NCBI GenBank assembly: GCA_029551145.1
Contig: JAKPGA010000069.1
Location: 1-64,000, forward strand
Direction: 5' to 3'
Source: Thermotogota bacterium
Lineage (GTDB): Bacteria > Thermotogota > Thermotogae > Thermotogales > DSM-5069
Length of the DNA: 64,000 bases
Positions 21,626-28,596 of the stretch are shown one piece after another (the stretch's first letter is position 1; each line of letters begins with the position of its first letter). A program made the translations under genes and the position numbers. The notes below the pieces were generated by a model. It worked only from the letters and a program-made list of their open reading frames with translations. It searched no databases and was not told the DNA's origin.

Positions 21626-22878
21626 GAATTCATCCCTCCTGCGATCTGCTTCAGACGCCGTAATATACCAGGGCGTCCCCTAACCCGAAGCACTACCATA
21701 TCTTCTTGATATACCTGTTCGGTGATTGTTATCTTTTCCTTTTCTTTCATGAGCAAAGGCAAATCTCTCAGTTTGACTGCAAATAGATCTTCGCATTCAT
21801 TCTTTTCGATTTCATCGCAAACACGTTTCAAAAGTTCCTGAAATCCAGTTTTGTATAGAGCGCTTATGAATATAGATTCCGGGTAAGCAGCAGAGAGTTC
21901 TTTCAGCACATGTGGAGAAACTCTATCGATCTTGTTAAAAACTAAAAGACGAGGCAGGTGGTTTGCTCCAAGTTTTTCCAATGCGGCAAGAGAAGATCCG
22001 AGTTTTTCGTTGAAGTTTTCATCTGAGATATCCACAACAACCACTATGAGATTCGAGTAGAGTATCTCCTCAAGCGTAGATTCGAAGGCTTTTATGAGAG
22101 TGTGTGGCACATTCTTTATGAAACCAACGGTGTCCTTAAAGAGTACCACCCTTCCGTTGGGGGTCTTCACTCTCCTTATCACCGGTGCCAGGGTGCTAAA
22201 AAGTTTGTCGGCCACGAGTATATCATCATCGCTCAGGGCTTTTATCAAGCTCGATTTTCCTGCGTTTGTATATCCCACCACCGAGACCATTGGAAGATCG
22301 CTTTGAAGGCGCATTTTTCTTTGTTGTGCCCTGTTTTTCTCTATCTGCATCAATTTCTGCTTTATGATTCTTATCCTTTCACGTATCCTGCGTCTTTTCT
22401 CTTCCAGCTCCTGCTCACCTGGTCCCCTGGTCCCTATGCCACCACCAAGCCGCGAAAGCTCTCTACCTTGCCCTACCAATCTTGGCAACTGGTACTGTAG
22501 ACTTGCCAGCTCTACCTGAAGTTTTCCTTCCTCGGTTGTTGCGTGGTCTGCAAAGATATCTATTATGATCTGTGTTCTGTCTTTTACAGTCACACCGAGT
22601 TCTTTCTCGAGATTCTTGACCTGTAAGGGAGTTATTTCATCATCAACTACAACAAGATCGGCATTTGTCAATGCTATGAGTTCCTTGAGTTTTTCTATCT
22701 TGCCAAGCCCGAAATAATAACGTGAATCAGGTTCGGATCTTTTCTGATAGAACATCTCCATGACTTGGACCTGAAGCGTGCTCAACAATTGTTTGAGCTC
22801 TTCGACAGATGAGTAATCTTCCCTTATGCTCAGGATGATTGCATTGTGAGGTTCAAGTGTTTTTCTACTTTGAGACAC
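21622..22878 (-). CDS. hflX: GTPase HflX
   Basis: GRELSRLGGGIGTRGPGEQELE, GYTNAGKSSLIKAL, KDTVGFIKNVPH. Confidence 0.95.
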   Translation of the reverse strand: MSQSRKTLEPHNAIILSIREDYSSVEELKQLLSTLQVQVMEMFYQKRSEPDSRYYFGLGKIEKLKELIALTNADLVVVDDEITPLQVKNLEKELGVTVKDRTQIIIDIFADHATTEEGKLQVELASLQYQLPRLVGQGRELSRLGGGIGTRGPGEQELEEKRRRIRERIRIIKQKLMQIEKNRAQQRKMRLQSDLPMVSVVGYTNAGKSSLIKALSDDDILVADKLFSTLAPVIRRVKTPNGRVVLFKDTVGFIKNVPHTLIKAFESTLEEILYSNLIVVVVDISDENFNEKLGSSLAALEKLGANHLPRLLVFNKIDRVSPHVLKELSAAYPESIFISALYKTGFQELLKRVCDEIEKNECEDLFAVKLRDLPLLMKEKEKITITEQVYQEDMVVLRVRGRPGILRRLKQIAGGMNS

Positions 22879-23137
22879 CTTCGGCTTGACCTTCCTGTTG
22901 CTCTTCCTTCTGCTCGGTTTTCATGAGCATTACAAAGCTCGAGGGCATGATAGTACTTATCGCGTGTTTGTAGATCAAATTCTGCTGATTCTCGTTCTCG
23001 AGCAGAATCGTGAAACTGTCAAAGGAACGGATAATGCCTTTGGTTTGAAAACTGTTGACCAAATACACCTTCACCTCGATCTTGCCCACCCTCAGCGCAT
23101 TCAGAAACCTGTCTTGGAGATTGAACTTTTCAACCAT
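22865..23137 (-). CDS. hfq: RNA chaperone Hfq
   Basis: FNLQDRFLNALRVGKIEVKVYLVNSFQTKGIIRSFDSFTILLEN...YKHAIST; start at ATG 23137. Confidence 0.94.
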   Translation of the reverse strand: MVEKFNLQDRFLNALRVGKIEVKVYLVNSFQTKGIIRSFDSFTILLENENQQNLIYKHAISTIMPSSFVMLMKTEQKEEQQEGQAEGVSK

Positions 23138-23138
23138 T

Positions 23139-24068
23139 CTATAACCCCCCGTCAACAAATAAATTACCTCGTGCTTCTTGCAACACGATTTGCGAAATAA
23201 TCTTCACAGTGTCTTCGTTCTCAGAAACGTTCAACACCAATGCGTCTTCGTATCTTCGAAACCAAATCAACTGTCTCTTAGCGAAATGCCTGGTATTCTT
23301 CTTTATCTTCTCGATCATCGATCGATAGTCTATTTTCCTTTCTATGTATTCAATCACCTCTTGATAACCAATCGTTTTCATTGAGTTCAATTCTTTTGTA
23401 TACCCCATTTTCAGAAGACCTTCGACTTCATCCACTAAACCACTTTGAATCATCTTTTCAACCCTTGTATTGATTCTATCATAAAGTTCATTTCTATCTC
23501 GATTCAAAATTATCACGGTGAATTTCCCCGCAGGAGATATCTGTTTTTGAAGTTCGGAGAACTTTTTTCCAGACTTTAAGCAGACTTCAAGCGCTCGGAT
23601 TGTTCTTTTCAAATCATTTTTGTGAATCTTTGAAGCGTACTCTGGATCATATTGCTCAAGTAATCTTCGCAGAGAACCGGGGTTTTGTTTTTCCACTTCA
23701 AGAAGTTCGGAACGCAGTTGCTCGTCTCTTGGGACTCCATCAAAGATGCCTTTTAACAAAGAATCGATGTACAAACCAGTTCCCCCAACGAAGATCGGAA
23801 TCTTCCCTTGCTGAAGGATCCTTTTGACTGTTTGAATCGCATCGACTCTGAACTGATAGACGTTATAGTATTCATCAGGTTTGACTATGTCAACAAGGTG
23901 GTGTTTGACCAAGTTCCTCTCTTGCATAGTTGGTTTGGCCGTACCGATGTCCATGAATTTATAGATCTGTCTCGAATCAACTGAAACGATCTCTCCATCA
24001 ATACTCTGACACACTTTGATTGCGATCTCTGTTTTACCAACGGCAGTAGGACCGCAGATGATGATCAT
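23139..24068 (-). CDS. miaA: tRNA dimethylallyltransferase
   Basis: GPTAVGKTEIAI, DSRQIYKFMDIGTAKP, GGTGLYIDSLL, KRQLIWFRR. Confidence 0.95.
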   Translation of the reverse strand: MIIICGPTAVGKTEIAIKVCQSIDGEIVSVDSRQIYKFMDIGTAKPTMQERNLVKHHLVDIVKPDEYYNVYQFRVDAIQTVKRILQQGKIPIFVGGTGLYIDSLLKGIFDGVPRDEQLRSELLEVEKQNPGSLRRLLEQYDPEYASKIHKNDLKRTIRALEVCLKSGKKFSELQKQISPAGKFTVIILNRDRNELYDRINTRVEKMIQSGLVDEVEGLLKMGYTKELNSMKTIGYQEVIEYIERKIDYRSMIEKIKKNTRHFAKRQLIWFRRYEDALVLNVSENEDTVKIISQIVLQEARGNLFVDGGL

Positions 24069-24835
24069 TTCTTTTCTATCACCCCATAGAAAACTTGACT
24101 TCTTCTACTGCCGAAGATTTTATCCACAGGTATACGTCTGAACAAGCTATCCTTGGCATGTGCCTTGAGAACAATCCTTCTCTTGGCAACTTTGAACATT
24201 TGGTCTACATCGTCTGCGTTTATTGTGTCGTACACAGCAAAAGGTCTTAGTGGATTCATGGAAGACGACTCAAAAACGGGATTCTCAAACATCGGGTCAC
24301 AGTAGACTATATCATAGGAATTCTCTTCACAGGATCTCAGGAATTGTTTGAAGTCAGCGTGTATCACCTGTATTTTCCTCATCGCGGTGTTAATCCAGTT
24401 TTCCTTCGCCCTGTGGTTTGCCAGTCCATCTCGAACGACCACAAAGATCGGTGTTGAGGCTTCCAGACCTATTACTGTTCCTGAATCGAGGAAAGAAGCC
24501 ATCAAAATCGCTTCTGTGCCAAGCCCAAGAGTTGTGTCGAGAATGATTTCATCGCCAGTTAACTGAAGACATTCAATCAGATGATCTTTCAATCCCTTCT
24601 GTATGTTTTTCATTCTCACCTTCGCCATCGATGGATGAAAAAAGAATTCACCGCTTTCAGATTTTACTACGAGCCGGTTTTTTTCTACCACATAGCAGTA
24701 TTCTCCTTGGGTCGCTGCACAGATGTTGGGGTAGTCTTTTCTGGGAAGGTATGGTATTTGTAGTTCATTTGCGAGTTTCTTAGCCTTTTTCACTTGTTCT
24801 TCAGCAGGGTCGTGAGAAGTGGTGACGAATATCAC
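24065..24835 (-). CDS. Class I SAM-dependent methyltransferase (RsmJ-like family)
   Basis: DTTLGLGTEAILMASFLD, YCDPMFENP motif. Confidence 0.75.
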   Translation of the reverse strand: MIFVTTSHDPAEEQVKKAKKLANELQIPYLPRKDYPNICAATQGEYCYVVEKNRLVVKSESGEFFFHPSMAKVRMKNIQKGLKDHLIECLQLTGDEIILDTTLGLGTEAILMASFLDSGTVIGLEASTPIFVVVRDGLANHRAKENWINTAMRKIQVIHADFKQFLRSCEENSYDIVYCDPMFENPVFESSSMNPLRPFAVYDTINADDVDQMFKVAKRRIVLKAHAKDSLFRRIPVDKIFGSRRSQVFYGVIEKK

Positions 24836-25077
24836 TTCTTAATGTTCACTCCTTCTATTATGTTCTTATCCTCCTGTAGCTCCTTGAATTCTACGAGCAA
24901 GTTCTCATAGGTCGATTTGAGTTGTTGGTTCTTGAGTACACACTGTTGATATCTAATGTAGGAAACTGTAAATAGAAAGAGGACACAACACAGAATAATC
25001 AGGGTGACACCCCTGAATACACGTCGACTCTTCTTTTTGCGATTTTTCTTCAGTTTTATTTTCAAATCAGCACTCAA
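24832..25077 (-). CDS. Small single-TM coiled-coil protein, FtsL/DivIC-like in architecture
   Basis: 81 aa: basic N-tail, one TM (TLIILCCVLFLFTVSYI), then LKNQQLKSTYENLLVEFKELQEDKN. Confidence 0.5.
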   Translation of the reverse strand: MSADLKIKLKKNRKKKSRRVFRGVTLIILCCVLFLFTVSYIRYQQCVLKNQQLKSTYENLLVEFKELQEDKNIIEGVNIKK

Positions 25078-25091
25078 TCAAACCACCCATT

Positions 25092-27365
25092 CTACTTGAG
25101 TCCTGTACGTGCGACTCCTCTTACAAAGTATTTTTGAGTGAACAAGAACAGTATAACAATGGGCAAAATGGAGAAGGTCGCTGCGGCCATCAATTGATTA
25201 TACACAGTTCCCACATCTGTACTGAAGGTTTGTAACCCAACGGGCAGGGTTCTGTATTTATCCTTATTGGTCACTATTAAAACCCACAGAAAGGCGTTCC
25301 AACTACCAACAAACTTCAGAAGGGCACTTGTTATTATAGTTGGTTTTGAGAGCGGTACAACCACAGTCCAGAGAAATCTAAGGTGAGAACAACCATCTAT
25401 CCAGGCAGCATCCTTAAGTTCCATCGGAAGTGTCAGAAAATGCTGTCGCATGAGGAAAATCGCAAACACGCTCACCACCCAAGGTACTATTAGTGCATAA
25501 TAGGTATCTATCCAGCCAAGTCTTGATATCGTGATGAAATTCGGTACCAAGAGCACCTCTCCTGGGATCATCATAGTTCCTAAGAAGAGTGCGAAAACGA
25601 AATTCTTCCCTGGAAATCTCATCATGGCGAAGGCATAGGCAGCCATAGCGGCAAAGACAACCTCTATAACCGTTGTAACTATGGCTACAAAGGCTGTGTT
25701 CAAATAGTATATGCCAAAGGGAGCACTCTTCCAAGCCATGAAGTAGTTTTGAAAAACATTTGCGAAGATCTCTTTTAAGGAGTAGTCTACCCGGACAGAA
25801 TAATTCTCATCTTCCAGGTAAACTGGGTGAACATCGCTCAGCTCTATTTCAATGTTTTGATTCCTATTCAGTCTAATATTCTTAACGAACTCCGGAGCCT
25901 GAACAATATCCATAAGAGATTGGCTTTGATTGTAAATTCTTCTCAGCTCCGAAACTGCCTGGATGTTCTCATAAGTCTCAATCAGCAACTTCCAAAATTG
26001 CTCTGGATCACCACCAATTCTTGACAGGTTCTCAAGTTTTTCCAAAGCTATCTGTAGAGCTTGATTCATACCAGTCAGTTCTCTCAATTTCTCGACCATC
26101 GTTTCAAAGGATTGAAACTGTGAGAGACTCTCTACACCCATATAGGTTAGCGAACTGGTCAGCGCTGAAAGTGGTTGCTTCAGCTGCTGAATGTACGTTC
26201 TCACGTTGTCAACGTGCATAGTCTGAAACTGTCTGTATAACTGTTCATCCAGTACTTTGTCAACTCTCTCCGGCAGCGATTGTGTCGAACGACGGAGTTC
26301 TTCGTTGACGACATCCTTGATCCTTTCAGAGAATTTCACCTGCGCGAGTTGCTGTGACATTATTCTGTCTCTTTCTGTGTTGCTCAGAAATTTGAAGACG
26401 ATCTTGTCAGTTTGAGTTTTCGATGTCTGAATCGATCTGAAATACCTGTCAACGAAGACATAGGTGTCGAGCAGATTGAGAAGATTTCGAAGTGGCTGAA
26501 CAACTCTATTTGCATAAAGTTGTACGACAGGGCTGTCTTTCAGTTCAGGGTTCAATGAATCCGGTGCGACTTGTTCGATACATTCGCTCATATTCTTTCT
26601 GAGACTTTCAATTTCTTCATCCTGCAGCAATGCAATCGCACCCTTCTTAAAGATTGTTACTTTCGACAGCGTGCTGTTCAATGATTTTTTTGCATTGGAT
26701 ATCAATGACAGATAGTTTTCCCTCTCATCTTCTGTTATCCTATTTGCATACCTTTCAAAGATTTCCAGCTGGTTCAATGAATTACCGATTACTTGCTCGA
26801 CCTCTGTTATGTAGTTTCTACGGTCTAAAAGTGCGGATGAACCATGTTGGTATAGTACAAAAAAGTTTGAAAAGAATTCTTCAGCATCCCGGGCTGATCT
26901 TGCCAACTCCGATACTTGCTTGTTTGGACTGACGGAATTGAGTTGTTCGACGAATCTATCGAAACTTTCCCGATCAAGTGCTCCACGAAGATACGCAAGA
27001 TCCTTCGACAGAAGAATCGTTACCGTTCCTCTGTAGACTGGATCGTCGTCTATTTGAAGCGAAAGAACCCTACTCGTTCTCTGTGAATCTGTGAGGGTCA
27101 AAGCTTCCCTCAAAGTTAACCCTCTCCAGTCGATGCCACCAGCAGAGCTTCTTGACACCTTCACCTTAACTTTCCACGATCCTGAAAAGTTCTTCGAACC
27201 CCACTGAGGTGGCCATTTTTCAACCTCACTTCTGGCTTTGAAGGAGGTTGAGACCATCCAGGCAAAAGGCAACAGCATCAATATAGCTCCACAGGTGACG
27301 AGCAGATAAACCAGGGTCGAGAAAAGGAACTTTCTCATGCCTTTCACCTCAAGAGATGTACTCAA
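25092..27365 (-). CDS. MalG-type ABC sugar permease with a roughly 460-aa insertion after TM1
   Basis: TM1 MLLPFAWMVSTSFK; C-terminal core with EAA loop ELKDAAWIDGCSHLRFLWTVVVPLSKP. Confidence 0.85.
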   Translation of the reverse strand: MSTSLEVKGMRKFLFSTLVYLLVTCGAILMLLPFAWMVSTSFKARSEVEKWPPQWGSKNFSGSWKVKVKVSRSSAGGIDWRGLTLREALTLTDSQRTSRVLSLQIDDDPVYRGTVTILLSKDLAYLRGALDRESFDRFVEQLNSVSPNKQVSELARSARDAEEFFSNFFVLYQHGSSALLDRRNYITEVEQVIGNSLNQLEIFERYANRITEDERENYLSLISNAKKSLNSTLSKVTIFKKGAIALLQDEEIESLRKNMSECIEQVAPDSLNPELKDSPVVQLYANRVVQPLRNLLNLLDTYVFVDRYFRSIQTSKTQTDKIVFKFLSNTERDRIMSQQLAQVKFSERIKDVVNEELRRSTQSLPERVDKVLDEQLYRQFQTMHVDNVRTYIQQLKQPLSALTSSLTYMGVESLSQFQSFETMVEKLRELTGMNQALQIALEKLENLSRIGGDPEQFWKLLIETYENIQAVSELRRIYNQSQSLMDIVQAPEFVKNIRLNRNQNIEIELSDVHPVYLEDENYSVRVDYSLKEIFANVFQNYFMAWKSAPFGIYYLNTAFVAIVTTVIEVVFAAMAAYAFAMMRFPGKNFVFALFLGTMMIPGEVLLVPNFITISRLGWIDTYYALIVPWVVSVFAIFLMRQHFLTLPMELKDAAWIDGCSHLRFLWTVVVPLSKPTIITSALLKFVGSWNAFLWVLIVTNKDKYRTLPVGLQTFSTDVGTVYNQLMAAATFSILPIVILFLFTQKYFVRGVARTGLK

Positions 27366-28596
27366 CTGTTCTGCGGCTCAGCCAAAACTGAAGGGCCGTG
27401 AAGATCAAGATAATGGCAAAAAGTATGTACGCCGCGGCACAGGCAATGCCCATCCTTTGTTGAACGTAGAACCTGTCAAAAACATAGTAAACCATAGTCA
27501 TCCCACTGTTGTTGTAAGGACCTGGGAGTCCGCTGTATAGAACATACACCTCGGTGAAAACCTTGAAGGAACTTATCAAAGACACAACCAACAAGAAAAA
27601 CGTGGTTGGTGTGAGCAATGGCCAGGTTATGTAAAGAAATTTATCCCAAGCTTTCGCGCCGTCAACCTCTGCAGCCTCATAATAAGATTTGTCTATGTTT
27701 TGAAGGCCTGCGAGTAATATCACAGCATCATATCCAACCGTTTTCCAGATCGATACGATTGCTATGGTAGGAATAGTCCAGCGCTCATCTTTCAACCAGG
27801 CTATCTTACTGATCTTGAAAAAAGAAAGCAAGTAATTCAGTAGACCGTAAGCATCGTCAAAAATCCATCGCCAGACAAGAGATATGGCAACCACGGAGGT
27901 AACAAAAGGTACAAAGTAAGCTGTTCTGAAAAACGCTCTTAGTTTTATATTGCTGTTGAGCAACAGCGCTATGATCAGAGCCAGCCCGATGGTTGTTGGA
28001 ACGCTTAGGACGACATAATAGAGTGTGTTGTAGATGGCTTTTATGAATAGATTCTTGTCACGACTTTCAAGGAAGAAATTCACAACGGTGTAGATCCTCT
28101 TGTCAAAAAAGATCCAAAGCGCGATCAACAATAAAGTGATCAGACTGATGCCGATTCCATGCTTTGAGAAAACCGCTTTGTTCCTCAACAAAGCGTAGAT
28201 AAGAGCCAAAAGAACGACAACAAGGATCGTAGAAATCTTATAATTGGTCGCAAACCAAAAACACATGGCTGAGACCATGACTGTAATAGTGGAAAGATAT
28301 GGCCTTTTTGTGAAGGCGTACAGTGATAGGACAACTGCAAAACAGACTGCAATAACGGTCAATGTTTCAATCAAGGAATAGGCAAAACTGTGGGAAGGTA
28401 AACTCTGAAATCGAAAGATTTCCGCATAGTTTTCAAAACCCGCAAAAACCGGGTTTCTCATGTTTTTGAAATCCCATCTGAAGAAGCTCAGCACAAACGA
28501 GAAACCAACGGGCCAGAACACAAAGGTACCAAGAACCAAAAAGGAAGGCAACAAGAAAAGATATGCCAGCAGAGTTTCTCTTGCCTTCCTCTTCAT
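27349..28596 (-). CDS. MalF/UgpA-type ABC sugar permease with an extra TM-rich insertion
   Basis: AYLFLLPSFLVLGTFVFWPVGFSFVLSF; EAA loop YYEAAEVDGAKAWDKFLYITWPLLTPT. Confidence 0.86.
   Translation of the reverse strand: MKRKARETLLAYLFLLPSFLVLGTFVFWPVGFSFVLSFFRWDFKNMRNPVFAGFENYAEIFRFQSLPSHSFAYSLIETLTVIAVCFAVVLSLYAFTKRPYLSTITVMVSAMCFWFATNYKISTILVVVLLALIYALLRNKAVFSKHGIGISLITLLLIALWIFFDKRIYTVVNFFLESRDKNLFIKAIYNTLYYVVLSVPTTIGLALIIALLLNSNIKLRAFFRTAYFVPFVTSVVAISLVWRWIFDDAYGLLNYLLSFFKISKIAWLKDERWTIPTIAIVSIWKTVGYDAVILLAGLQNIDKSYYEAAEVDGAKAWDKFLYITWPLLTPTTFFLLVVSLISSFKVFTEVYVLYSGLPGPYNNSGMTMVYYVFDRFYVQQRMGIACAAAYILFAIILIFTALQFWLSRRTVEYIS

Follow-up and report, generated by a model that had tools for sequence, protein, structure and literature searches.

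A pair of sugar permease genes standing apart from any partner, each with a product enlarged by an unusual insertion, raises the question of how such a transporter receives its substrate: from a receptor built into the permease, or from a solute-binding protein (SBP) encoded elsewhere. The pair, of MalF and MalG type, lies in the window, by which we mean the whole stretch of 64,000 nucleotides analysed, part of a 2.1 Mb Thermotogota genome (G000). The original prediction had placed large insertions after TM1 in both subunits, proposed that the permease might itself carry a receptor or an envelope-spanning module, and regarded the pair as a candidate for an undescribed system. Its statement that no SBP or ATPase gene lies beside the pair in the window is correct; the SBP is encoded elsewhere in the genome.

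BPD_transp_1 is the sole domain recognised by Pfam in either protein (residues 570-752 of MalG and 203-410 of MalF). The best NCBIfam matches, UgpE for MalG (142.7 bits, cut-off 297) and UgpA for MalF (83.2 bits, cut-off 335), both remain below their cut-offs. With two such cores and an EAA loop in each, the proteins form a type I (CUT1-like) permease pair, and the invariance of these loops across homologues (EAAEVDGA..P in MalF, DAAWIDGCS..P in MalG) agrees with the earlier expectation that they are intact and should couple to an ATPase. At its maximum length, the malG reading frame spans 25092-27365 on the (-) strand and encodes 757 residues from an upstream TTG. The ATG at 27338 is likely the better start, because the bases ahead of it, GAGGTGAAAGGC, contain an SD-like GAGGTGA and the starts in relatives align there; a 17-nt overlap with malF would then be replaced by a 10-nt gap. 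MalF in turn starts 13 bases past the hslU stop codon. The features are compiled in Table 1.

Table 1. Coordinates of the permease genes and of their inserted segments in the window.
Feature	Position	Strand	Details and basis
MalG/UgpE-type permease	25092..27338	(-)	748 aa from ATG; BPD_transp_1 69 bits
MalG core, TM2-TM6	25092..25754	(-)	EAA loop DAAWIDGCSHLRFLWTVVVPLSKP; EAA match, core conservation
MalG insert, TM1-TM2 (P1) loop	25755..27185	(-)	residues ~52-528 of 748; alignment to L245
MalF/UgpA-type permease	27349..28596	(-)	415 aa; BPD_transp_1 68.6 bits; EAA loop EAAEVDGAKAWDKFLYITWPLLTP
MalF insert, TM1-TM2 loop	28057..28413	(-)	~119 aa, about four TM helices; hydropathy, alignment

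The boundaries of both inserts were set by alignment to the nearest insert-free paralogues, a pair in the same genome (L245) with 46% identical cores. The MalG insert comprises about 476 residues between '...WPPQWGSKNF' and 'QNYFMAW..', and that of MalF residues ~62-180. Hydropathy averaged over 32-33 homologues from across the phylum gives an N-terminal TM helix and five core TM helices for MalG, with no TM peak between them, and three to four additional TM peaks within residues 74-164 for MalF. The MalG insert is accordingly predicted to be soluble and extracytoplasmic. A low-confidence AF2 model (pLDDT 55) places short strands near both of its ends and helices between. The two architectures originally proposed, a mainly helical extracytoplasmic segment after TM1 of MalG and about four extra helices in the matching loop of MalF, are thus recovered by alignment and averaged hydropathy. 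Pfam, NCBIfam, PDB sequence and PDB profile searches found no known domain in the MalG insert, nor did Pfam and PDB profiles yield any SBP match. A match to Baculo_PEP_C (0.00029) and similar hits were single-member and coiled-coil-like, and we dismissed them as chance. AF2 runs from three sequences only gave two models with pLDDT values of 55 and 47, which yielded no fold for the insert and are too poor to speak on a novel one; Foldseek with these models returned nothing meaningful (best E 0.14).

In sequence, the inserts have drifted far more than the cores: across the phylum, 80-93% of core columns are conserved, compared to 30-45% in the MalG insert and 28-47% in the MalF insert, with length and architecture retained throughout. 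A conserved ..DD(P)xYRGT motif stands out in the MalG insert. Between G000 and G009 the nonsynonymous difference within this insert is 0.18 and the synonymous one 0.77, synonymous sites being saturated for several of the pairs compared, and the insert is under purifying selection. As it is also single-copy in its own genome and present in 44 of the 45 genomes of the order, it is no chance feature.

The insert extends well beyond the order. A profile of TM1 plus insert, counting matches beyond the generic TM1 motif, detects insert-bearing MalG in 98 of 103 Thermotogota genomes, the exceptions being G034, G046, G075, G077 and G078. An insert-only profile, which has limited sensitivity and misses three true members, finds it in 95 of the 103 and gives no match among 287 non-Thermotogota genomes (390 in all). 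MalF was found in 96 of the 103 genomes; together with a frameshift-split copy in G013 that the search missed, the total is about 97-98. In a tree of permease cores, all insert-bearing MalG proteins form one clade (100/99). A scan of the named genome collection returned mostly the generic TM1 motif, its only true relatives being in Pseudothermotoga (L105) and Fervidobacterium (L106). The pair has been inherited vertically and marks a near-universal, single-copy importer, restricted to Thermotogota, with an uncharacterised domain of ~475 residues. In many members of the phylum malFG lies upstream of a methyltransferase-miaA-hfq-hflX-metK block; in the family of the window it follows hslVU. Elsewhere the genes are scattered, and in G044 and G033 MalF, MalG and SBP are each on a separate contig. 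G025 and G035 have MalG in two separate frames, and G002 has a truncated copy; for these genes and the frameshifted MalF of G013 (loci L038, L047, L035 and L271), sequencing error and real inactivation are both possible.

The partner came into view in Thermotoga (L042), a genus assignment that follows from a near-identical copy of the T. maritima arginine-binding protein (ArgBP) adjoining the locus. There, an SBP gene is oriented divergently, 96 bp from malF. We take this locus of pair and SBP to be the TM0595-TM0598 neighbourhood; a literature search found no paper naming TM0595, TM0596 or TM0598. The orthologue in the genome of the window (contig C33, 24951-26198) is unlinked to the pair and 62% identical, as against 32% in the next paralogue. 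Within the order, 42 of the 45 genomes have an orthologue, with a gap in identity from 61% to 35%; the copy in G012 is in two pieces. Across the phylum the count is 95 of 103 genomes, mostly with a single copy. The protein is UgpB-like (123.3 bits, below the cut-off of 411) with SBP_bac domains, and its signal sequence does not end in a lipoprotein cysteine. Its closest solved relatives are a series of sugar-binding proteins (7c14 and relatives, E 8e-43), presumably of Thermus origin, and UgpB.

SBP and permeases also disappear together. In four genomes from three lineages (G034, G046, G077 and G078), SBP, MalF and MalG are all missing, a co-absence with a Fisher p of about 8e-5 when relatedness is ignored. 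Only one genome, G075 (78% complete), has the SBP and lacks the pair; the converse applies to G001 and G047 (each 71% complete), G099 (fragmented) and G015 (99% complete). The last of these belongs to a genus (f2 g5; L041, L043) in which the SBP is absent in G015 and split in G012 and the permease pair is intact and constrained, and which offers a natural test of SBP dependence.

A third line of evidence comes from class-level relatives of family f8, where a duplicated SBP-SBP-MalF-MalG set forms one cluster, with a third SBP in some. The duplicate MalF (427-429 aa) has the extra TM helices, and the duplicate MalG (~566 aa, core 58% identical), whose insert is homologous but shorter, branches within the insert-bearing clade (100/99). 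The SBPs of the cluster fall in the partner clade (100/99), from which the remaining SBPs of the genome are excluded. These loci (L265-L269) have two or three paralogous SBPs per permease pair, and nearby are ~175-aa proteins starting with MKIAVIGYSG.

By adjacency, co-absence and joint duplication, the UgpB-like SBP is identified, on genomic grounds, as the dedicated partner of the pair. Of the two findings that had been named as speaking against the original proposal, a known domain family in the insert did not emerge from any search; a standard dedicated SBP did, adjacent in Thermotoga, in an operon in f8 and co-absent elsewhere. The idea that a receptor built into the permease makes an SBP unnecessary drew on the lack of an SBP gene in the window, and G015, which retains the pair with no detectable SBP, would suit it. 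It has become very improbable, given an SBP that is dedicated, co-retained across the phylum and twice linked to the pair, and an insert in which Pfam and PDB profile searches found nothing SBP-like.

For its more than 20 CUT1-like permease pairs, the genome of the window has only three ATPases of MalK type. One of the ATPases (L210, contig C13), of UgpC type with 525 bits (cut-off 432), has no permease beside its gene, and this lone UgpC/MalK-type protein is likely the motor of the MalF-MalG pair. Each piece of the system scores best against the models for UgpE, UgpA, UgpB or UgpC. By the equivalog test, however, the ATPase alone passes; the other three lie far below the curated NCBIfam cut-offs, and UgpABCE permeases measure about 280-295 aa and have no inserts. 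The pair belongs to an intact type I importer, with which an SBP is associated on genomic evidence.

Among the other permeases of this genome, a 740-aa MalF-type protein (L209, 2716-4938; contig C7) has ~440 extra residues with several TM helices before its core, and a 404-aa MalG (L213, 2820-4034; contig C16) has a TM1-TM2 insert of ~130 residues; the MalF partner of the latter (L213, 1954-2823) is interrupted by one in-frame TAG.

The closest published precedent is provided by MalG1 and MalG2 of Thermotogales, which contain a hydrophilic TM1-TM2 region of ~500 residues, unlike any known protein, of unknown function, and said to be absent from all other MalG proteins (Noll et al. 2008, PMC2246101). 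To call the system of the window undescribed was therefore too strong, even though the published insert is a different and apparently non-homologous one. The two cases share phylum, subunit type, loop, approximate size and a helical-looking insert, and the MalG1/MalG2 operon, like the window pair, has no ATPase gene. However, a profile-profile comparison of the inserts (hhalign) gave a probability of only 1.9%, by which we rejected homology, and the cores are only 30% identical, the MalG1/2 clade being remote from that of the window family in the core tree (100/100). MalG1/2 sit with malE and a MalF having a P2-type loop, whereas in the window pair MalF has additional TM helices, the SBP is unlinked and no malE lies next door. 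The window family is a second case of a TM1-TM2 insert, in a different permease clade, and since the inserts are without sequence homology and the cores distant, the two insertions appear to be independent. Within a single phylum, unrelated large domains have in this way entered this permease loop on at least two occasions. Such a recurrence of apparently independent insertions in one loop, together with the partner SBP, which is now open to expression and assay, is where we see the main value of the analysis.

What might the insert do? Our leading mechanism, reached by analogy, has a dispersed-gene CUT1 importer (UgpABCE/MalFGK-like) in which the MalG insert acts as an SBP-docking arm, a reading to which we give an even chance. 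The secreted SBP would bind a sugar or polyol-like solute and dock on the MalF-MalG dimer, with the shared ATPase driving uptake. The insert, as an extracytoplasmic arm, would serve to capture, orient or check the SBP, in the manner of the enteric MalF P2 domain, and the extra MalF helices might brace this arm or widen its membrane base. The proposal builds on the location of the insert, in a loop that, in E. coli MalG, reportedly touches the SBP: as cited in PMC3150292, Daus et al. (2007) place the MalE contact sites in MalG P1, the TM1-TM2 loop, and in MalF P2. E. coli MalFGK2 likewise has a large extracytoplasmic domain in one permease subunit, on the SBP-facing side; P2, however, comprises about 180 aa and lies between TM3 and TM4 of MalF, whereas the insert of the window is in MalG, between TM1 and TM2, and unrelated in sequence. 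Two observations count against docking. The insert evolves fast and the SBP is far more conserved, unlike what a tight docking surface alone would predict; and the pair stays constrained in G015, where no SBP was found, and the SBP of G012 is in two pieces.

Such fast evolution at constant length could instead reflect a helical stalk, which in an otherwise usual SBP-dependent importer would anchor the permease to peptidoglycan, an outer-membrane protein or the toga and hold it near the site of substrate entry. Stalks are often, like this insert, long, mostly helical, constant in length and variable in sequence, and both the confinement of the insert to Thermotogota among the 390 genomes and the unrelated hydrophilic insert in the same loop of MalG1/2 suggest a phylum-specific need of the envelope. 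We consider this reading unlikely, though worth keeping in mind: Pfam and PDB sequence and profile searches found no known peptidoglycan- or membrane-binding domain, the short strand segments and the YRGT motif near the membrane suggest a folded base, and the stalk shape itself depends on a poor model.

Less probable still is that both inserts chiefly help the heterodimer to assemble or remain stable at high temperature, without contributing to substrate delivery. The two inserts do occur together in every pair examined, the f8 duplicates included, and MalF and MalG are on different contigs in some genera, so their assembly may need help. However, the inserts are present in all sampled families, from whose breadth we infer that growth temperature makes no difference, and they are missing from most of the remaining permease pairs in the genome of the window.

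The docking arm, for its part, invites a broader and rather doubtful generalisation, namely that large extracytoplasmic arms arose repeatedly among Thermotogota in the TM1-TM2 loop that faces the SBP: in the UgpE-like family described here, with its paired MalF helices, in MalG1/2, and in other paralogues such as the 404-aa MalG and the 740-aa MalF-type permease. If true, such arms would be a means, specific to the phylum, by which soluble SBPs are captured in a periplasm that is unusually wide and enclosed by the toga. In either case the locus raises an experimental question, what a type I importer needs at its SBP-facing side in a toga-bearing envelope.

Two neighbours of the pair deserve mention. 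Directly after malG, a position kept in many relatives, the window encodes an 81-aa protein (24832-25077, (-) strand) for which a Pfam search was empty; it has a single TM helix and then a coiled-coil-like segment, a layout resembling FtsL/FtsB/DivIC. Further on, between miaA and hflX, lies the gene of an Hfq-like protein (22865-23158, (-) strand; NLQDRFLNALRVGKIEVKVYLVNSF).
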